From: an uncultured Thermoproteales archaeon
GTDB taxonomy: Archaea > Thermoproteota > Thermoprotei > Thermoproteales > Thermoproteaceae
Direction of reading: 5' to 3'
NCBI GenBank assembly: GCA_946480885.1
Contig: CAMLLK010000035.1
Coordinates: 1-7,770 of the forward strand
DNA: 7,770 nt
Shown: positions 1 through 7,770 of the stretch, one piece after another
Layout: each line of letters starts with the position of its first letter
Position numbering within the stretch: the stretch's first letter is position 1
The notes under the pieces: generated by a model
The model's database searches: none
Told to the model about the DNA's origin: nothing
The model's input: the letters and a program-made list of their open reading frames with translations, nothing else
Position numbers and translations under genes: made by a program

Positions 1-39
1 AGATCTCCACTCTTTCCCTACACGACGCTCTTCCGATCT
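1..39 (+). other. Illumina P5/read-1 adapter left in the assembly
   Basis: The first 39 bases match the end of the Illumina P5 plus TruSeq read-1 adapter. They run from the AGATCT of the P5 part through CTCTTTCCCTACACGACG to the final TTCCGATCT. The only difference I see is a C at position 7, where the adapter has A. The orientation is the one expected at the start of a read, with the insert beginning directly at position 40. This is library sequence, not archaeal DNA, and it marks an artificial contig end that truncates the gene at 40-774. Any translation through 1-39 is meaningless. Confidence 0.96.
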
Positions 40-774
40 CTGGCCGTGGAAGTACTCTCCCTCTTGAAAATACATCCTCCGCCATGTGGGGGCCTTGTCT
101 GGAAAGGCCTTGGCCAGGCGGGCGAAGTTATCTCTCTTCGCCTTGTAGGTACTTGCCACTAGGTGTTTGGCCCCGGCCCCGGCGGCTTTTGCCACGACCT
201 CTTCTATATTCTCAACGTCGTCGTTTAGTAGCGGAATTAGGGGGTCGAGCCTTACAGTAACTGGGATGCCCGCCTCCGCGAGGCGCCTCACAGCCTCAAG
301 CCTCCCGGCGGGGCGCGGCGCCCCTGGCTCTAACACTGACGCAAGTCCGTCTCTAAGCGTTGTAATTGTGATTTGCACAGCCACGCGCCCCCTATGCCTT
401 TGGAGAATATCTAAATCCCGGAGGACTAGAGGCGATTTTGTGACAATAATTACTCTATACCCCCTCTCTAAGAGCGTCTGCAACACTCTCCGCGTCAGCC
501 CCAGCTTGGCCTCCGGCGGCGTGTAGGGATCGGAGGAGTTTGAGAGGCTTATCACGGCGCCCCGGGGGATTTTCTCCAAATCCCGCCTTACTTTATCAAG
601 CAAATCCTCCTTCGGCCGGGGGTTGAAGGCGTCTGGTATGTAAGAGGTGATGTAACAGTATAGGCATTTGTGTCCGCAGCCTGTGTAGGGGTTGAGGCCG
701 TATTTAAAAGGACAGGTGCAGAGGGGATTCCCCCAGGGGTCGAAGGGCCTGACGGCGTTTAACGATATGCGCAC
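40..774 (-). CDS. Radical SAM protein, spore photoproduct lyase-like (SplB/COG1533 type), C-terminus missing
   Basis: The open frame gives 245 residues from a GTG at 774-772 and runs without a stop into the adapter at 39, so the C-terminus is lost. The radical SAM cluster motif CxxxCxxC is C33-GHK-C37-LY-C40, inside NPYTGCGHKCLYCYI, the form typical of the SplB-like COG1533 family. Further family-like segments are the SNSSDPYTPPE stretch around residues 80-90, VIIVTKSPLVLRD around 110-122 and RLDPLIPL around 178-185. Two extra cysteines (C19, C21) precede the cluster. Members reductively cleave S-adenosylmethionine with a 4Fe-4S cluster; the substrate of this archaeal branch is unknown to me, and DNA photoproduct repair should not be assumed. 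The upstream in-frame codons offer no other start, and a TATA-like element at 792-801 suggests an almost leaderless transcript. It lies 35 bp behind the ATPase gene on the same strand. Confidence 0.9.
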
Positions 775-791
775 GGAGTCCTCTGCCCCGG

Positions 792-801
792 TATTTAAAA
801 A
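792..801 (-). promoter_or_regulatory. TATA box for the radical SAM gene
   Basis: On the minus strand this reads TTTTTAAATA, centred about 22 nt before the GTG at 774. That spacing fits an archaeal promoter with a leaderless or nearly leaderless transcript. It lies between the ATPase stop codon (810-812) and the radical SAM start, so the latter gene may be transcribed independently. The T-run could also help end the ATPase transcript. Confidence 0.55.
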
Positions 802-809
802 CGTGGCGG

Positions 810-1577
810 CTATTTCTTCTGCCTCACCTCTATTCCCAGCTCCCTCAGCTGTTTGCTGAGCATTTTTAACATCGTCTTTACGTCTATTTCAGCCACACGC
901 CCGTTGACAATTTCAAAATGAATCCAGTCGTGTGAGACTTTAAGCCTCTTCGCCCTGTAAATTCTCATGCGCCTCACGTAGAGGCCCATTTCCTCTAAAT
1001 TGGGATCCACCTCTATTTGTATAATTACGTCGGCTAAATGCACTGCGGTAGCTAACACGCCGTATACCTCCTCCACGTCTGTGTGAGCAGTGGCCACGAC
1101 AATGGAGTCTGTGTGTTTGGCAAAGATCTTAAAGGCGCGGAAGACTTCTAATGCAGACCCCGGGCTTCTCATCAAGATCTCGTTAAGCGAGTCAACCACG
1201 ACGACACCTCCTCTGAATTCCGCGGCGAATTCAGCCAGTTTGTTAACCAAGGCGTAGGCATCGGGCGTCTCTAGCCTGTGCCTAAACGTCGGCTTCAACT
1301 TGGCCAGCCGCTCGCCGGGCGCGACAAATCCGTCAACAACTATTACCCGGTCCGCCGGCGCCCCGTGGCTTTTTAACTCCTCTAAAACCTCGTCTGCCAG
1401 CGCGTCAATGGCGAAGAACAAAACGGGCGCCCCTGCCCTTGCCGCCGTCGCCGCTATAGTTGAGGCGAAGAAAGTCTTCCCCACTCCTAGGAAGCCCTCA
1501 CTTAGGACCACGTAGCCAGGGGGGATGCCATCGGGAATCTGCTCGTCTACTGGATCAATTCCCGTCTTAAAACCCAT
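810..1577 (-). CDS. RecA/KaiC-like ATPase (RadA/GvpD superfamily, COG0467 type)
   Basis: This 255-residue protein has one RecA-fold ATPase domain. It opens with a KaiC-like lead-in (TGIDPVDEQI, residues 5-14), followed by a Walker A loop G28-FLG-VG-K34-T35. The Walker B strand is GVVVVD (124-129) followed by S130, and VATAHTD (161-167) is a sensor-like strand. The C-terminal RIYRAKRLKVSHDWIHFEI segment (205-223) matches the usual KaiC-family arginine/histidine region. At the end of beta-3, where KaiC proteins normally carry an acidic pair (usually EE), this one has D58-A59. Single-domain archaeal KaiC-like proteins are widespread and mostly of unknown role, possibly regulatory. The ATG at 1577 has a TATA box about 24 nt upstream, supporting this start and a leaderless transcript. 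Family assignment is firm; biological role is not. Confidence 0.92.
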   Translation of the reverse strand: MGFKTGIDPVDEQIPDGIPPGYVVLSEGFLGVGKTFFASTIAATAARAGAPVLFFAIDALADEVLEELKSHGAPADRVIVVDGFVAPGERLAKLKPTFRHRLETPDAYALVNKLAEFAAEFRGGVVVVDSLNEILMRSPGSALEVFRAFKIFAKHTDSIVVATAHTDVEEVYGVLATAVHLADVIIQIEVDPNLEEMGLYVRRMRIYRAKRLKVSHDWIHFEIVNGRVAEIDVKTMLKMLSKQLRELGIEVRQKK

Positions 1578-1596
1578 GTAAAAAACGCGACGGCCT

Positions 1597-1605
1597 TATT
1601 AAAAA
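1597..1605 (-). promoter_or_regulatory. TATA box for the KaiC-like ATPase gene
   Basis: The minus-strand reading is TTTTTAATA, centred about 24 nt before the ATG at 1577. This is the standard archaeal spacing for a leaderless transcript. Confidence 0.6.
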
Positions 1606-1659
1606 CTTCGCCTCCAATCAATAAGTATAACACTTTGCGGAGCGGGCCCCTCCGGCATC

Positions 1660-1936
1660 CTAAAAAGGGGCGTTTATTTTTACCTCCAAGAATGCTGTTA
1701 TATACGCAAAAGAGCCGCGACAAATATTCCCAATAAACGCCGTGAAGAGATGCGGTACTCCTGACTCTTCGTCGTAGTTTACAAATCCGTGGGCGGCGGC
1801 GTTTATCACCTCGCCTGCGTCTGGTGTAAAGAGCAGAACAACACTTGTGCACCTAACAGTCTCGTCGTAAAACTCCACTATCGCCGTCAATGCGACTGTA
1901 ACCAGCAGTGTGGCGATTACTACTGCTAGAGATCAT
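1660..1936 (-). CDS. Small protein with hydrophobic N-terminal segment; start codon apparently frameshifted
   Basis: I do not recognise this protein. The reading frame spans about 90 residues between a TGA at 1935-1933 and the TAG at 1662-1660. It begins with a strongly hydrophobic stretch (SLAVVIATLLVTVALTAIVE) that looks like a signal or anchor helix, with some resemblance to archaeal type IV pilin N-termini. A polar domain with two cysteines follows (about 70 residues, ending EVKINAPF). The only ordinary start codon in frame is a TTG at 1890, but it sits inside the hydrophobic segment and would remove most of it. An ATG at 1936-1934, about 31 nt downstream of a TATA-like element, is where a start is expected, yet it lies one frame off, overlapping the TGA. 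The simplest reading is a small indel or sequencing error just after the ATG. A broken gene is equally possible. A TTG start at 1890 remains the fallback. Confidence 0.5.
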
Positions 1937-1961
1937 AGTGTAGTGAACAATACCTTTTTTT

Positions 1962-1972
1962 CGTTAATAACG
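1962..1972 (-). promoter_or_regulatory. TATA-like promoter element for the small hydrophobic protein
   Basis: The minus strand reads CGTTATTAACG here, centred about 31 nt before the ATG at 1936. It is symmetric, so direction is not certain. A second AT-rich element (TTTAAAA on the minus strand, 1975-1981) lies further upstream. Transcription from the nearer box would begin at about 1941, just before that ATG, which supports it as the intended start. Confidence 0.4.
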
Positions 1973-1983
1973 GATTTTAAATG

Positions 1984-1997
1984 CTGTTGCCTAACAG
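1984..1997. repeat. Short inverted repeat downstream of the phosphoesterase gene
   Basis: CTGTT (1984-1988) and AACAG (1993-1997) are perfect complements around a 4-nt loop. The repeat lies between the phosphoesterase stop and the promoter of the small gene. It could be part of a terminator or an operator, but five base pairs could also occur by chance. Confidence 0.3.
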
Positions 1998-2003
1998 AGA
2001 GGG

Positions 2004-2011
2004 AATAAAAA
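2004..2011 (-). terminator. T-rich tract after the phosphoesterase gene
   Basis: On the minus strand the sequence reads TTTTTATT about 12-19 nt beyond the phosphoesterase stop codon at 2025-2023. Archaeal termination commonly occurs at short U-tracts without a stable hairpin, so this is a plausible termination site. Confidence 0.4.
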
Positions 2012-2022
2012 TGGCACGGCCC

Positions 2023-2655
2023 CTAATAATACAGCTTTTTTAAACTCACCACGGCCTTTGTTCCATCTAGTACCGCCTCGGCGTAGTAGCCGTCTTTCAA
2101 GGGGCCTGGGTTGACGACGATCGTATCGCCGATTATGTCAATGCCTCTATCCTCGTGTATGTGGCCGTGGACGGAGAGAATCGGTTGTTTTTCCTCGATG
2201 TATTTCTTAACCGCCAGGCTGCCAACTGGCCTTACCCCGCCCACTTTGTCTAAATGTCCCCTCGGCGGGTTGTGGACCACCAAGACGTGGGGCGTGGGCG
2301 TAAGGGAGTAGAGTAGCCCCTGGAGATCCTCTTCCGACACTCTGAACAAGTCGTTGAAGGGCGTCGGGAGGCTCCCCCCGGCGCCTCCGATCACGTAGGG
2401 GCCCAGCCTTTGAGTCCTCCCGTGGACAGGCTTAATAGAGTCCTTCTCAAACCCGGCCAGCTCCGGAGGGTCTGTATTCCCCGGCACGAAGTACACAGGG
2501 GCTATCCCGGCGAGAGCCTCCAGCGCCTCCACAGCCGCCTCAACGCTCCGCTTGTAGGTGAAGTCGCCAGCCGCTATTACCGCGTCGTAACTGCCCCGGA
2601 TTAATCTCACTTGTTTAACTCCGTCGTGTACATCGGCGACTAGTATCAGGCGCAT
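2023..2655 (-). CDS. Calcineurin-like metallophosphoesterase
   Basis: The 210-residue protein carries the full metal-binding signature of the superfamily in order: D8-x-H10 in VADVHDG, G30-D31 in AAGDFT, G59-N60-T-D in VPGNTDPP, H128 in VVHNPP, and G164-H165-I-H167 in SVHGHIHED, followed by VNPGP (181-185). These residues normally hold two divalent metals for phosphoester hydrolysis. The compact size and the GNTD and NPG motifs resemble the YfcE/MJ0936-like archaeal phosphodiesterases. The substrate cannot be read from sequence. No signal peptide is visible, so the protein should be cytoplasmic. The start is the ATG at 2655, about 24 nt after a TTTAAAA box, so a leaderless transcript is likely. 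It is divergent from the large surface gene, with a 254-bp gap between the starts. Confidence 0.93.
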   Translation of the reverse strand: MRLILVADVHDGVKQVRLIRGSYDAVIAAGDFTYKRSVEAAVEALEALAGIAPVYFVPGNTDPPELAGFEKDSIKPVHGRTQRLGPYVIGGAGGSLPTPFNDLFRVSEEDLQGLLYSLTPTPHVLVVHNPPRGHLDKVGGVRPVGSLAVKKYIEEKQPILSVHGHIHEDRGIDIIGDTIVVNPGPLKDGYYAEAVLDGTKAVVSLKKLYY

Positions 2656-2675
2656 TTGCGCTTTAAGATATTCTG

Positions 2676-2682
2676 TTTTAAA
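2676..2682 (-). promoter_or_regulatory. TATA box for the metallophosphoesterase gene
   Basis: On the minus strand the sequence reads TTTAAAA within GTTTAAAAC, centred about 24 nt before the ATG at 2655. This supports that start and a leaderless message. Confidence 0.55.
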
Positions 2683-2714
2683 CTTGACGGCGCTAGTTAA
2701 TGCGCCTCCCTACA

Positions 2715-2722
2715 TTTATATA
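2715..2722 (+). promoter_or_regulatory. Orphan TATA box in the divergent gap
   Basis: TTTATATA is a strong archaeal TATA match with no long reading frame after it; the first ATG downstream (2728) is followed at once by TAG. Read on the plus strand, transcription would begin near 2745, a few nucleotides before the nested inverted repeat at 2753-2831. The element is also AT-rich on the minus strand, so direction is uncertain. Confidence 0.45.
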
Positions 2723-2744
2723 ACAACATGTAGAACGGCGACTA

Positions 2745-2832
2745 GGCAAAGCAAAAGCGACACTGGGAAGCACTCTCCAACACTCGCCAAAGTCCCCGGG
2801 CGTACCCAGACCTCACAGCCCCCTCGCTTTTT
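2745..2832 (+). ncRNA. Candidate small structured RNA (nested hairpin ending in a T-run)
   Basis: AAAAGCGA (2753-2760) is perfectly complementary to TCGCTTTT (2824-2831), closing a 79-nt unit. Inside it, CTGGG (2763-2767) pairs with CCCAG (2805-2809), and CGCC (2785-2788) can pair with GGCG (2799-2802), so all three helices nest. The 3' strand ends in TTTTT (2828-2832), which could act as a U-tract terminator. A strong TATA box lies about 26 nt before the expected 5' end. An ACA at 2815-2817 raises the possibility of an H/ACA-like guide, but the spacing does not clearly fit. I recognise no known family. The boundaries and the existence of a transcript are inference; the pairing is seen. Confidence 0.35.
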
Positions 2833-2869
2833 AACGCGGAAAGGACACTGAATAGGAAATACTACTATA

Positions 2870-2892
2870 GCGCAATGTTTATAAATCCGTTT
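2870..2892 (+). promoter_or_regulatory. Core promoter (BRE/TATA) of the first surface-protein gene, copy 1 of a 23-bp repeat
   Basis: This segment contains GCGCAATG, then the TATA box TTTATAAA (2878-2885), then TCCGTTT. It is identical over 23 bp to 6132-6154. The box centre is about 28 nt before the ATG at 2910, so the transcript should be leaderless or nearly so. Between box and start lies a T-tract (2890-2904, interrupted by one C) that is much shorter in copy 2. Confidence 0.75.
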
Positions 2893-2909
2893 TTTTCTTT
2901 TTTTGAGGC

Positions 2910-5030
2910 ATGTTGCCGAGATCTCTTCTAGTAATGGCGTTGGCGGCTTGGGCTGTGTTGCTAACAGCGCAGGGACCGCCTGGGGAGCTGTTCTGCGCCT
3001 CGGCGGGGGAGCTGGGGCTTGCGGGAGAGTCGTCAACGCTTATGTTCTCAGTGTTTGAAAGGGGGTCTTGGAGGCCTGCCGCCGCATATATAGAGCCGGA
3101 GAACGTCACCTTCCTCCTCGTGCCGCTCCTCACTAGAAACGACACTGACATATCTAAAGCCGCGGTGCCGGGCAGGCTCCCGCCCCCTGTCTTGAGAAAC
3201 GAGACAGTGGTGTGTTTTGAGGCCGCCCCGGGGAGGCCTGCGGTGGATCCGCCCGCGCCAGGCCTCCTCATAGTGGCAGAGAAGAGGGTGGCTAAATACC
3301 ACGTCTTCGTCGCCAGGGCAGAAGACGTGGAGAACCCCGCCAATTTTACGCTTGCTTTGCCCAATAAGGCCGAGGGGAAGAGGCCGGACAAGGTAGAACT
3401 GGCAGACCAACGCCCGCCTCGCGGCGGCAAGAAAAAACAACAGCCAGAGGCAGAGGTGCAGTCTGTAAATAGCCTAAGCTACTGGGCCGCCTTCAAGCTG
3501 TATAAACTGACCTCTGCCTCCCTGGCGCCAGGCGCGTGTCTATCCACTACCTTCGACGTGCCAGAGGGAACGCGGCAGGCGGCAGTGGTCTTAACAGGCG
3601 GCACAACACCTGGGACGTATCAATACACTATAACCAACACCTTAAGTCCGTCCAACAGGTGGAGCGGCACGGTAACTGTACCCCAGGGATCTCCGCAAAC
3701 TGCGGTGCAGTGGTTGCCCTCAGGCAGAGCCCAGTACTACGTAGAGATATGTAATAGAAACTCCCAAACCGCCACCGTCTACACCTCGGTGTTACTCCAA
3801 GCCCAGAACCAGCAGTATTTTAGAAACGACGTAATTAGAACTCCTAGGATCTACATCCTCACCTACTTGCCTGTATACTGTAGTAATTATGGCCTCTGTC
3901 CGAGCAACACGCATGTAATATATGAAAACTCTTACTTCGCCATTCCTGGGTTTTATGTAGACGCCGCCTCCTACATCTTCCTCGAAATATACGTAAAAGT
4001 GCCAAAAGAGGCCGCTAAGTCCGACCCAGTTACGGTGTACTGGGGAAGTATCCCTGTGGCAACTCTCTACGGCTATGACTCGGGGAACACCAAAATCTAC
4101 TCAGGCAGCGTGGTGATACCAGACAGCTATTTGATGTTCCTCCTACCCACTTACGGCCTAGGAGGAGTTATCTCAATAGGCCCCTTTACCATCTACGCAA
4201 ACTCTGCATATGAAGTGGAAGTAAAGGCGGCTGTGAGGAGGCCGCAGGAACTCGCCCCAGCAGGTGACGCAACAGTATACAATACGTTAGTAAGAAGATT
4301 CAGAGAGTCCTTTCTCTTCTTTGACCGGAGAGCATTTATAGCAGACATAGACTATGCAAGAGCAAGTGGGGGAAGTGGCGAGCTCGTTATAAGTACTAAG
4401 CCGGTTGTAGATATTGGCGCACCGCCATGGGCCAAGTACTCATACGTGACGTTCTACATAAGATTCTACGACGGCTCTATGAATCCGATAGAAATATCTG
4501 GAGGTAGCGCATCTGTTGTCAATACGACTTCGTGGTGGGGGAGTGCGTTGAAAAACTTGGCAATAGTTTCTGCAATTCTCCAGATTTATGATTTGATAAA
4601 GGGCACTGTTGACGCTTTGAAGAAGGTGGCCACGGGCTTTCCAGTGATTGGATATGTGACTTTTGCCATGGACGCCATTATTAACGCCGCGGAGGCCAGA
4701 GTAAGCGTTGAAAGAGTTGATTCCTACACGTTGAAAGTCACTCTGTGGACAGGAGGATACGATAGGTATCCACTAGAGGCGAGAATATATTTTAACATAC
4801 GGAGTGATCCGCAGTACGTCGCCGTTACGGGGGTTGAGTATAGTATTGGCGAATTAGGTTCTTGGATTACTGTACATAGAGTGGATAAGCCGGTTCTGCC
4901 GTACACGTCATATGCGTATGTGGGAGGTGTCAGTAGCGTTACCTACTTCCCCTACAGGACTTTGACATGCGGCGTCCAAGAGTCTCTAGGTTATCCGTGG
5001 GATAAGTGTGACAGCGCGTATTATCGGTAG
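2910..5030 (+). CDS. Large exported beta-rich surface protein, paralogue of the gene at 6164
   Basis: The 706-residue protein starts with a typical signal peptide: MLPR, a hydrophobic core to about residue 20, then AQGPP. A first domain (about 25-155) is followed by a basic Pro-rich linker with RPPRGGKKK at 168-176. Ser/Thr/Tyr/Val-rich beta-type sequence follows from about 186 to 540. An unusual helical hydrophobic insert lies at about 546-595, and a final beta-rich segment ends the protein. I see five N-x-S/T sequons (N65, N77, N97, N145, N538) and paired-looking cysteines (C324/C330, C687/C700), consistent with an extracellular glycoprotein. There is no C-terminal membrane anchor. It resembles S-layer or appendage-associated proteins of Thermoproteales in style, but I recognise no named family. 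The start is bounded by an in-frame TGA at 2904-2906 and supported by the TATA box at 2878. Its 3' end overlaps the membrane-protein gene. Confidence 0.85.
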   Translation: MLPRSLLVMALAAWAVLLTAQGPPGELFCASAGELGLAGESSTLMFSVFERGSWRPAAAYIEPENVTFLLVPLLTRNDTDISKAAVPGRLPPPVLRNETVVCFEAAPGRPAVDPPAPGLLIVAEKRVAKYHVFVARAEDVENPANFTLALPNKAEGKRPDKVELADQRPPRGGKKKQQPEAEVQSVNSLSYWAAFKLYKLTSASLAPGACLSTTFDVPEGTRQAAVVLTGGTTPGTYQYTITNTLSPSNRWSGTVTVPQGSPQTAVQWLPSGRAQYYVEICNRNSQTATVYTSVLLQAQNQQYFRNDVIRTPRIYILTYLPVYCSNYGLCPSNTHVIYENSYFAIPGFYVDAASYIFLEIYVKVPKEAAKSDPVTVYWGSIPVATLYGYDSGNTKIYSGSVVIPDSYLMFLLPTYGLGGVISIGPFTIYANSAYEVEVKAAVRRPQELAPAGDATVYNTLVRRFRESFLFFDRRAFIADIDYARASGGSGELVISTKPVVDIGAPPWAKYSYVTFYIRFYDGSMNPIEISGGSASVVNTTSWWGSALKNLAIVSAILQIYDLIKGTVDALKKVATGFPVIGYVTFAMDAIINAAEARVSVERVDSYTLKVTLWTGGYDRYPLEARIYFNIRSDPQYVAVTGVEYSIGELGSWITVHRVDKPVLPYTSYAYVGGVSSVTYFPYRTLTCGVQESLGYPWDKCDSAYYR

Positions 5031-5562
5031 TTTTGGGCTAAAGGCCTCTTTTTTCTTGTTTCTTTTTTCCTACTTGTTGCTGGCTGGGGTTCGCGCGGGG
5101 GTGTTTGAGTTTCCCCATTTCCTTCTGTTGGGGGCTTTGGCGTATTTAGCGGCTTATTACGTGGCTAGTGGGCGTTATCTCTTCCCCACGGCTGTTTACG
5201 GGGCTGGGCTGGGGCTTTTGGCCCTCAACAAGTTTCTGCCGCCTAGCGCCGTGTTCGGGCCTCTGCCCGTTGATTTGAGCTGGGCCACTTTCTACTTCCC
5301 CTTTGCCGCCGCGGCCCTTCTCTTGTACGCGGCCACTTTCGCCAGGGGGTTTGCGGCGAGGGCTCTCTCAGTACTTCTCCTGGCGCTGGCAGTGGCGCTG
5401 GGACACTTCTACATGGTTTACGTGGGCTGGCTGTGGAGGGCCGTGGTGCCCTCCCTGGGGCTGGCCCCCGCCTTCCCCGAGCCCCAAGACGCGCCGCTAT
5501 ACATACTGCTCTACGAGCTGTGGAGAGCTGTACACCAGCTCCCCCTCCGGCGCAAGGCTTAA
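5008..5562 (+). CDS. Small integral membrane protein, about five transmembrane segments
   Basis: The 184-residue protein is almost entirely hydrophobic. Likely membrane segments are at about residues 12-30, 35-52, 60-78, 92-112 and 118-147. A short soluble tail follows, ending PLRRKA, whose positive charge would place the C-terminus inside the cell. No enzyme or transporter motif is visible and I do not recognise the family. The GTG at 5008 begins 23 bp before the stop of the large surface gene, in another frame. This overlap suggests co-transcription and possibly translational coupling, with no separate promoter visible. A role as membrane partner, anchor or assembly factor for the surface protein is inferred from this arrangement only. 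A later start within the first 20 codons cannot be excluded. Confidence 0.75.
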   Translation: MTARIIGSFGLKASFFLFLFSYLLLAGVRAGVFEFPHFLLLGALAYLAAYYVASGRYLFPTAVYGAGLGLLALNKFLPPSAVFGPLPVDLSWATFYFPFAAAALLLYAATFARGFAARALSVLLLALAVALGHFYMVYVGWLWRAVVPSLGLAPAFPEPQDAPLYILLYELWRAVHQLPLRRKA

Positions 5563-5893
5563 TCCAAGACTCTACTGGCGTGGATGCCCCCGCCTCTGGT
5601 GGCCGATACATGCGGCGGAGTTGGGCAGGTGAGTCCTATCGGCGGCATTTACGACGCGGCAACAGCCGCCGGCGGCCAGGCAGAACGTCGAGGTTGCTGT
5701 GAAAGCGCTGGAGACACTCGCCGTGATAGCGCCGTGTATTTCAACCTACAGGCAGATTGCGTTGTCGACGATGTGGAAAACTCCCGCGGAGACGCAGGTA
5801 GGTGATACACTTGTAAAGCTCAGATGCAAAAGCTGGAACAAAGGCGTATTTTTGAATGATGGCCGCATTAATGAGTTTGTATATAAAACTTAG
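5563..5893 (+). pseudogene. Possible decayed coding fragment in the intergenic gap
   Basis: No intact gene is convincing here. Two frames each read like part of a real protein. One runs directly on from the membrane-protein stop to about 5690 and contains SPIGGIYDAATAAGGQA. The other, from about 5684 to the TAG at 5891, contains NVEVAVKALETLAVIAP and ends NEFVYKT. Joining them needs a single frameshift near 5685. The second could alternatively be a free-standing GTG-started frame of 64 codons (5699-5893). I recognise neither part, and the protein-like look is a judgement by eye, so this is a weak call. Confidence 0.2.
5880..5888 (+). promoter_or_regulatory. TATA box in the gap between the surface-protein genes
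   Basis: The sequence TATATAAAA is a good archaeal TATA match. It precedes the palindrome at 5893-5905 and an ATG at 5916, about 32 nt from the box centre. No large gene follows, so any transcript would encode at most a short peptide or be non-coding. Confidence 0.4.
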
Positions 5894-5905
5894 TGTTTTA
5901 AACAC
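5893..5905. promoter_or_regulatory. Perfect palindrome next to a TATA box, operator-like
   Basis: GTGTTT and AAACAC are perfect complements around a single central T. The palindrome begins about 5 bp after the TATA box and covers the region just before the expected transcription start. Archaeal repressors often bind in that position. Its centre is itself TATA-like (TTTTAAA), so symmetry may be partly due to AT content. Confidence 0.35.
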
Positions 5906-5915
5906 AAGGGTCTTT

Positions 5916-6011
5916 ATGAAAACAGATATGTTTCCGCGGGCTTTACATCTCATAATAGCAAATCCACTGGCTAAATCTATACAAGAACCTACCACAGAGA
6001 TACGGCGCTGA
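5916..6011 (+). CDS. Possible 31-residue peptide gene
   Basis: An ATG at 5916 opens a frame of 31 codons ending at TGA 6009-6011, starting MKTDMFPRALHLIIANP and ending EIRR. The only support is the TATA box about 32 nt upstream and the palindrome between them, which together look like a regulated promoter with a very short leader. There is no recognised domain and no cysteine motif. A frame of this length is easily found by chance. The segment could equally be the 5' part of an untranslated RNA, with the GC-rich hairpin at 6015-6028 downstream. Confidence 0.15.
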   Translation: MKTDMFPRALHLIIANPLAKSIQEPTTEIRR

Positions 6012-6014
6012 GGA

Positions 6015-6028
6015 GAGGCCGGAGCCTC
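6015..6028 (+). repeat. GC-rich hairpin within a short direct repeat
   Basis: GAGGC (6015-6019) and GCCTC (6024-6028) form a 5-bp stem with a 4-nt loop. The 8-mer CGGCGCTG occurs just before and at the end of this hairpin (6003-6010 and 6028-6035). No U-tract follows, so it is not an obvious terminator. Apart from this hairpin, and the promoter copy beginning at 6132, I see nothing recognisable in 6012-6163. Confidence 0.3.
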
Positions 6029-6131
6029 GGCGCTGTCGCAACGCCCGCAGTCTCCCAAGCCAGTGCTCAACCCCTTGACGAGGGAGCCGACAGCAGTGCA
6101 TACTCCAACGCCTTCGTAATCAAGTGATGAT

Positions 6132-6154
6132 GCGCAATGTTTATAAATCCGTTT
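6132..6154 (+). promoter_or_regulatory. Core promoter (BRE/TATA) of the second surface-protein gene, copy 2 of the 23-bp repeat
   Basis: This copy is identical over 23 bp to 2870-2892, with the TATA box TTTATAAA here at 6140-6147. The sequence immediately before each start is also alike (TTTGAGAC here, TTTGAGGC in copy 1), but the T-tract between the two conserved parts is 8 nt shorter. The start codon is therefore only about 20-24 nt from the box centre. Confidence 0.75.
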
Positions 6155-6163
6155 GTTTGAGAC

Positions 6164-7770
6164 ATGGTGACGAGAATAGTTCTGTGGATTGCGATTGCGG
6201 CGTTTGTAATAGCTGGTTATGTTGACGTCCACGTAGAGGGCGGGCCAGACGTTGAGAGCCTGCATTTGTATGTATGGAACGGCTCCGACTGGACGCCTGT
6301 TTATGTCATTTACCAGCCAGAGTTTATTGACACATACCTTGTCGCCACTGGCCAGTGGGTATTGATGCCCTACTACAACATGTCTAAATATGTCCTGCGC
6401 ATTCCCAGGGCGGCTCTGGCGCCGCAGGGGCCTCCACAAGTCCCGCCGGGGCTAGAGCGCTGGACTCTGGAGGTGGAGAACGGGACTAGAAAAGCGGTCA
6501 TAACGCTGGCAGTGGGCAGAGACCCGCTGAGGCGCGGCAACACAACTCTGGCCACATGGAAGGCGCTTGGTCAAGAAATAGTGAAGACGCCAAACCGGGG
6601 CAAAATTGACAGGCCGCCTAGGAGGGGGCCTCAGAACAGCCCAGATGGCGGCGATGTTGCAACCGCCAGCTACGCCGTGTCTACAGGCGCTACCGTATAC
6701 CCCATTGGAAGCCTCTATTTCAAATCGGCCTCCGTTGCTAGCACCTTCAGCACATACCTGCCCGTTGACTCGCCCACGGGCGAGACGAGGCTGTGCGGCT
6801 TGGACAATATGCACTGGGTTGGGTTTGAAGTTCAAAACTTCACCTTAGGGATTAAGGTGGATGGATATGTCACCGGGGGCTACCTCACTCTAGAAATTTA
6901 CAACTTAGACACGTGCACCTTAATAAGCAACACGCTCTTCGCACTTCCAAATACCGGGACCTACTGGACAAATATACAGATTAGCCTTCCCCAAGACAGC
7001 CAAATTGGCGTGAGGCTAAAGGCAAGCGGTAGGGCGGAGGTCGCGTTCATTTCAGCATATGTAGTTGCGAGGTATAAAAAGACTGTAAACAGCCTCGCCC
7101 AAATAGCAACTTCGAAGGTTATTTCAGCCTCTGCTCCTAGAATAAGCGTAAGTGGCAGGTACAAAGTGGGAGTCCTCTACGGACCTTACGTCGCGTATGA
7201 CGGCTTGGCGGGGAACTCCGCTGGTTCGAGCTACAGCAACGTATATGTTCCGCCGTCTACAGTAACGCTTACAGTGTATGGGCAGTACTGCCCGTTATTA
7301 AATGTACAGATTTATATCAACGGTATGTTATACACATCTGACCTTGTAAGCCCCGTCTCGACGACCCCTGCAGGTTATACTTGTACTTATAATGTTCCTT
7401 CGAAAACCTTACAGATAAGGCCCAGGGAGTACGCAGTATCTAAGGCCACTTATTCGGGCGGGGGCATCTCAGTCACAGTGGTATATACATTTTGGGGAAG
7501 TAGCGCAACCATAAGCTTTTCCGACAGACTCCAAATAGTATATGACAGGTGGATAGAGCCGTTCCATTCGCGCTATATAGACGTCAGTACTGGATTACCC
7601 TATCCCCAGTGGGGGACTGTATTACTCTATAACACATTACAAATTTTAGGACCAGTCAACAGCTCCACTCTGAACATAGTAACGGAAATAAGGGCCAGAA
7701 ACAATGAATTGATAATATCTCTTGCGCACAACTTGCTAAATCCCATGTTTCATGTATGCGGCGCTGAGTG
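6164..7770 (+). CDS. Large exported beta-rich surface protein, paralogue of the gene at 2910; 3' end beyond window
   Basis: The frame is open from ATG 6164 to the window end, giving at least 535 residues with no stop. The start must be the ATG at 6164 or the GTG at 6167, because TGA lies in frame at 6158-6160; the short distance from the TATA box slightly favours the GTG. MVTR plus a hydrophobic run to about residue 18 forms a signal peptide. The N-terminal domain shares ESxL, GS-W-P and PE spacing with the first paralogue (residues 31-60 here, 40-71 there). A linker with RPPRRG at 150-155 matches RPPRGG there. Later, YNTL (489-492) and ELIIS (515-519) correspond to YNTL (457-460) and ELVIS (491-495). 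Six sequons are visible (N39, N72, N106, N126, N225, N499). By this alignment roughly 195 residues remain beyond the window. Function unknown; cell-surface location is inferred. Confidence 0.85.
   Translation, partial: MVTRIVLWIAIAAFVIAGYVDVHVEGGPDVESLHLYVWNGSDWTPVYVIYQPEFIDTYLVATGQWVLMPYYNMSKYVLRIPRAALAPQGPPQVPPGLERWTLEVENGTRKAVITLAVGRDPLRRGNTTLATWKALGQEIVKTPNRGKIDRPPRRGPQNSPDGGDVATASYAVSTGATVYPIGSLYFKSASVASTFSTYLPVDSPTGETRLCGLDNMHWVGFEVQNFTLGIKVDGYVTGGYLTLEIYNLDTCTLISNTLFALPNTGTYWTNIQISLPQDSQIGVRLKASGRAEVAFISAYVVARYKKTVNSLAQIATSKVISASAPRISVSGRYKVGVLYGPYVAYDGLAGNSAGSSYSNVYVPPSTVTLTVYGQYCPLLNVQIYINGMLYTSDLVSPVSTTPAGYTCTYNVPSKTLQIRPREYAVSKATYSGGGISVTVVYTFWGSSATISFSDRLQIVYDRWIEPFHSRYIDVSTGLPYPQWGTVLLYNTLQILGPVNSSTLNIVTEIRARNNELIISLAHNLLNPMFHVCGAE

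Follow-up and report, generated by a model that had tools for sequence, protein, structure and literature searches.

The closest described counterpart of the genes analysed here is VARTIG, the hypervariable immunoglobulin (Ig)-domain gene module of the Thermococcales (Makarova et al. 2021, PMC8416519) and the only archaeal module of such kind that we met in a search of the open-licence literature. As far as the main text of that paper goes, its authors found no closely resembling module in other archaea and none outside the Thermococcales, the recombination sites could not be placed for want of close genomes, and the word Pyrobaculum does not appear. Our subject is a 7770-bp stretch of DNA from an uncultured Thermoproteales archaeon (contig CAMLLK010000035.1, positions 1 to 7770; hereafter the window), the plus strand of which carries a gene for a large protein (A), a small membrane protein gene, and a gene for a second large protein (B) that reaches the window end. 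A and B are remote paralogs along their whole length and belong to a superfamily of ~700-residue beta-rich proteins found mostly in Pyrobaculum. The original prediction, made from the letters of the window, had proposed diverged surface paralogs linked to a membrane gene; the regular pairing, a natural fusion and recombination between species are new beyond it. No description of the Pyrobaculum module was found in the titles and abstract starts returned by searches of the open-licence literature.

The Pyrobaculum modules resemble VARTIG as described in that main text in several respects. In both, a large beta protein, secreted in VARTIG and probably so in Pyrobaculum, comes first with small membrane-protein genes behind, and the C-terminal part recombines between strains or species (in Pyrobaculum this holds for the A clan and is weak in the B family); both also have a conserved C-terminal motif, a patchy distribution and broken copies. 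The host order differs, however, VARTIG belonging to the Thermococcales and the present members to Pyrobaculum and a few relatives, and so does the build: the Pyrobaculum modules have one partner, are dispersed (about 15 loci in one genome) and have junctions that can be located in DNA, whereas VARTIG forms heterogeneous arrays. No Ig or CARDB domain was matched by Pfam in the large proteins scanned (arCOG07710 itself, the Ig-type first protein of VARTIG, was not compared), and the models of A and B look like beta-sandwich or jelly-roll folds. Given the different order and the lack of a Pfam match to an Ig domain, we regard the Pyrobaculum modules as analogous to VARTIG and not as members of it.

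Relationship and shared architecture of A and B

Gene A (2910-5030, plus strand) encodes a 706-residue protein of the A clan and gene B (6164-7770, plus strand, cut by the window end, with its open frame read at 6164-7768) a protein of the B clan, both recognised from the open reading frame (ORF), relatives and an AlphaFold model. B was represented where needed by P0023, a 99% identical relative of 708 residues. The named relatives of A and B are hypothetical proteins, mostly of Pyrobaculum, together with one Thermofilaceae record and one Thermoproteus record. BLASTP of A against B gave nothing useful (E 0.16), and with shallow profiles the similarity was weak and confined to the N-terminal part (E 0.038, probability 1.4). 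Clan-level profiles, built after distant relatives had been gathered from Pyrobaculum genomes, gave a collinear match of 639 columns (probability 97, E 1.1e-10, score 97.7), versus scores of at most 31.3 when the A profile was compared with 31 control B profiles (one reversed, 20 column-shuffled and 10 block-shuffled). The high-confidence part of this alignment is short: its 43 columns cover the helices and the strands that follow.

The AlphaFold2 models of A (mean predicted local distance difference test score (pLDDT) 75.5, predicted template modelling score (pTM) 0.75, 26 alignment rows) and of B (as P0023; mean pLDDT 76.1, pTM 0.70, 79 rows including one repeat of the query) have a common order of parts: an N-terminal beta domain, a low-confidence basic linker, three beta-rich regions, two helices and a C-terminal beta domain. 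Secondary structure agreed at 0.66 over 591 aligned positions and at no more than 0.53 when one protein was shifted by at least 5 residues. As the models and the secondary structure agree, the fold comparison does not refute paralogy, and the proposal of diverged paralogs stands on both the profile scores and the shared architecture.

In A the N-terminal beta domain covers about residues 25-166 (2982-3407, plus strand; 10-residue pLDDT means of 69-91). As had been proposed, the motif RPPR then opens the basic linker in both proteins, at residues 168-171 of A (3411-3422, plus strand; pLDDT < 50 at residues 173-187) and at residues 150-153 of B (6611-6622, plus strand; pLDDT < 50 at residues 151-171). 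The helical hairpin of A, residues 550-594 (4557-4691, plus strand), was modelled with low confidence and is hydrophobic in some paralogs. A C-terminal tail of the pattern RT-TCG-QE ... C ... R (4956-5027, plus strand), for which alignments A1, A4 and A7 have columns with little or no variation, is among the best conserved parts of the A clan. A hydropathy scan found a hydrophobic N-terminal segment in each protein, which we read as a putative signal peptide, in keeping with the earlier claim; both proteins are probably secreted. Other details of the original prediction fared less well. Sequons are not enriched in A (5 versus 3.3 in shuffles, p 0.21) or in B (as P0023, 6 versus 5.0, p 0.39), so the supposed sequon-rich domains were not confirmed. 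Of the two motifs said to be collinear, YNTL differs between A orthologs and its match is therefore taken as chance, whereas ELxIS is indeed roughly collinear in the profile alignment but amounts to a weak strand pattern.

Among 81 genomes of the class, matches (E <= 1e-6) to the B-clan profile were found in seven, to the A-clan profile in six, and to either in eight. Read from the match tables, there are about 15 divergent loci in G029, a Pyrobaculum aerophilum-like genome (contig of 2,222,430 bp), and about 13 in P. oguniense, which agrees with the proposal of an expandable locus in Thermoproteales. P0143 ('P. aerophilum family 59') matched the A clan and P0060 ('P. aerophilum family 66') the B clan. 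These names thus belong to the same superfamily as the two clans, although they denote separate families without an assigned function and carry nothing of pairing, homology or recombination. Broken copies are also found: L050 and L056 are each in two pieces, remnants such as L055 occur, and L112 is broken by an in-frame stop whereas its relative L116 is intact.

Pairing with a membrane gene and exchange between genomes

The gene for the partner of A, a small hydrophobic membrane protein of 184 residues with a GTG start (5008-5562, plus strand), overlaps A by 23 nt and lies between A and B. When a partner was defined as a small hydrophobic ORF with its start between -60 and +150 nt relative to the member's stop codon, one lay directly 3' of 41 of the 44 full-length members of both clans, which are not independent because orthologs and the near-identical window and L046 pair were counted separately, versus 6 of 180 other long ORFs, some of which may have been counted twice because three loci overlap others. 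The 44 members were drawn from 46 sources (45 loci and the window), with edge members and those shorter than 600 residues excluded, and the partners range from 134 to 212 residues. The linked membrane gene of the original prediction is hence a regular companion, and the homologous P. aerophilum-like genome also has the second such gene that it expected, a hydrophobic gene of 164 codons behind B (L046:9904-10398).

Three members had no separate partner. At the L117 and L125 loci no downstream partner was seen. The third, L068, comes from a genome of 2,009,313 bp that we take to be that of P. calidifontis and is a single 786-residue protein in which A lacks its C-terminal tail and continues directly into the partner. 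We interpret L068 as a natural fusion of the large protein with its membrane partner, and such a fusion predicts direct contact of the two proteins. The A-clan tail may dock on the partner and would have become dispensable once A and partner were one chain.

Comparisons of protein and DNA sequences strongly support recombination between species and between strains, of genes as well as of entire modules, with breakpoints that fall within the large gene. One DNA case is that of P. ferrireducens (L052) and strain 3827-6 (L064). Measured per 100 columns and counted from the start of A, their identity is 82-98% up to nt 898, falls to 36-59% at nt 899-2486 and returns to 97-98% at nt 2487-2686, a stretch that takes in the partner gene's end. 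Outside about -190 to +2880 the two have unrelated flanks. Where P. ferrireducens carries the L052 module, 3827-6 cleanly lacks a 4.07-kb segment, module included, between flanks that are 94-96% identical, and the site of the 3827-6 module in P. ferrireducens keeps a 255-nt remnant. In 3827-6 the two flanks of the missing segment overlap by 13 bp (L132:12343-12355 versus L052:7263 and 11329), the kind of trace expected from a short direct repeat or from microhomology.

A second DNA case came from G029 and P. oguniense (G002). The background was taken from 400 kb of each genome in 800 bins of 500 bp; a match was found for 421 of these, with a median identity of 72%. The sole match of at least 92% and at least 300 bp in this comparison was a 12-kb segment of 93% identity, the inner ~9 kb of which are nearly identical, with 12 differing positions in the right 4.8 kb. 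Near identity stops at codon 110 of A (L046:4835; window equivalent 3239, no strand assigned), and A and its partner then show 58-86% identity.

At the protein level, 22 A proteins gave conflicting trees for the N-terminal 254 and the C-terminal 399 columns; these were 22 of the 26 rows of alignment A4, four far rows having been dropped, and the clades were chosen after the alignment was seen. The N-terminal tree grouped the window protein with P0009 (support 94/98) and P0007 with P0010 (100/99). In approximately unbiased tests the C-terminal data rejected both groups (p 3.5e-9 and 5.7e-6, respectively), and both groups tested from the C-terminal tree were rejected by the N-terminal data (p 2.8e-56 and 1.3e-4). 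The window protein and P0009 share 275 of 276 residues and then 156 of 388, and P0007 and P0010, the pair behind the first DNA case above, share 258 of 283 N-terminal and 159 of 371 C-terminal residues. The rough window equivalents of these two further A junctions, from sequence comparisons, fall at 3738-3830 (no strand assigned). In the B family, P0114 and P0117 are 88% identical before alignment column 377 and 51% identical after it, and this pair is likely a B mosaic.

Promoter repeats, neighbouring genes and possible insertions

Both large genes are preceded by the same candidate promoter. Exact copies of the 23-mer GCGCAATGTTTATAAATCCGTTT lie at 2870-2892 upstream of A and at 6132-6154 upstream of B (both plus strand; 0.00 expected in 200 shuffles), which bears out the repeated promoter noticed earlier, and the 23-mer has no further match in the window at up to two mismatches. 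Upstream of A, a TATA-like TTTATAAA precedes a T-tract that extends to the start codon. In four genomes all three exact matches to GTTTTTTTGANNCATG lay at the start codon of superfamily members, and a similar T-tract/GA..ATG context is found 5' of many members, but not of all. The T-tract at 2890-2905, between the TATA box and the start of A, reads T7-C-T7 in the window and is shorter in G029 (T8) and P. oguniense (T7), a possible length-variable promoter.

The minus strand of the window carries a radical-SAM gene, a KaiC-type ATPase gene and a metallophosphoesterase gene. Positions 1-39, at the contig end, are presumably Illumina adapter-like sequence, and the last residues of the radical-SAM ORF are an artefact because the ORF runs into it. 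The window can be aligned with G029 over 7.7 kb, with 97-100% identity at 1390-7687 and 79-87% at 40-1239. The shift lies inside the KaiC gene at about 1281-1360 and would be either a recombination junction or an assembly chimera. Between the partner gene and B, 5584-5742 (plus strand) is a degraded inverted copy of the metallophosphoesterase gene start (~71% match to 2488-2643, opposite strand), which we read as the scar of an inverted duplication. Inverted-duplication remnants of the metallophosphoesterase/KaiC/radical-SAM cluster lie around the module here and at L046:7340-7572 and L059:48-2711, and P. oguniense retains a fuller second copy of the cluster.

Interruptions and short repeats were seen at other loci. 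In L050 about 600 bp (9085-9679), containing a 131-bp self-complementary stretch, interrupt a B-clan gene. Dispersed repeats of ~70-95 bp occur at L066:7271-7365 and at L056:4677-4771, 6908-7002 and 9957-10027, and one lies within the coding frame of a B-clan gene of 842 codons. It is as if short mobile elements insert into these genes.

Candidate functions of the modules

We lean toward reading the A and B modules as a variable, membrane-tethered surface recognition module of two genes in Pyrobaculum, in which reshuffling would probably vary how the cell is recognised at its surface. The large protein would be exported by Sec and its conserved C-terminal tail (in the A clan RT-TCG-QE...C) would dock on the membrane partner, which would hold a jelly-roll ectodomain on show at the membrane. 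Recombination within the conserved 5' part would renew the downstream two thirds of the gene plus the partner, and these renewed parts would diversify a recognition surface for cell-cell recognition or adhesion, or for virus evasion. The homology, pairing, fusion and junctions are strong and the step from them to a biological role is the weak one.

Several points weigh against this reading. No domain library scanned (Pfam, NCBIfam, PHROGs and PADLOC, for the members scanned) assigned a function. A-type and B-type partners have no detectable homology to each other, so a single partner family is not established. The overlap of the partner ORF with the member in 34 of 41 cases was favoured by taking the first start codon in range. 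The P0009-P0013 group of the C-terminal tree has moderate support (88/85), and P0009 may be an assembly chimera. The block shared by G029 and P. oguniense also spans the KaiC, metallophosphoesterase and radical-SAM genes, and selection on the surface genes need not therefore lie behind its transfer. A strong change-point (log-ratio > 20) was seen in just 6 of 3003 B-family pairs.

Polymorphic toxin systems likewise have a conserved N-terminal part, an exchangeable C-terminal part and a cognate gene directly downstream (in part from PMC8416519). By analogy the large protein could be a toxin, either secreted or contact-dependent, with the small membrane protein as its cognate immunity protein, the variable part and immunity gene being exchanged together. 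The conserved 5' part, the exchange of the 3' part with all or part of the downstream gene, the many divergent pairs per genome, the broken copies, the hairpin that is hydrophobic in some paralogs and the gene immediately downstream in 41 of 44 members (a putative immunity gene) would all suit such a pair. We nevertheless judge it unlikely, since no toxin domain was found by the four libraries in the members scanned, the exchanged part stays homologous rather than being swapped for unrelated domains, the C-terminal tail is nearly invariant, and the two proteins are fused in one genome.

A structural component of the envelope, be it an S-layer subunit, a second layer, a stalk with membrane anchor or a surface appendage, is less probable still. 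Beta-rich proteins with a membrane partner would fit, and a second surface layer has been described in P. organotrophum (PMC5744192). However, matches in just 8 of 81 genomes, about 15 divergent loci in one genome and a module whose presence varies between strains with 94-96% identical flanks are not what such a component would lead one to expect, and the S-layer proposal of the original prediction loses ground for the same reasons. Its filament proposal fits the distribution poorly too, and no significant relative was found by sequence in the PDB: among solved structures the B clan had only a non-significant match to the PilC minor pilin (E 0.18) and the A clan none. A receptor or transporter complex, with the partner as channel or transporter, the large protein as ligand-binding ectodomain and paralogs for different substrates, would explain pairing and fusion and the resemblance of the beta-sandwich parts to many ligand-binding ectodomains, but we consider it very improbable because the partner is small with no recognised transporter domain above cut-off and interspecies mosaic exchange would be unusual for transporters.

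The A and B genes bring two families without an assigned function together as one system with a regular partner, and the comparison of sequenced chromosomes places the junctions to within about a hundred bases. With placeable junctions, joined families and a natural fusion, the idea that hyperthermophilic archaea vary their self-recognition or evade viruses becomes testable. More speculatively, the modules might constitute a system for recognition or conflict in Crenarchaeota that has converged with VARTIG, made of dispersed two-gene modules in which the recognition half and its cognate membrane partner move between species as cassettes through recombination in conserved 5' arms. If this is true, a hyperthermophile community would share and reshuffle a repertoire of surface identities.

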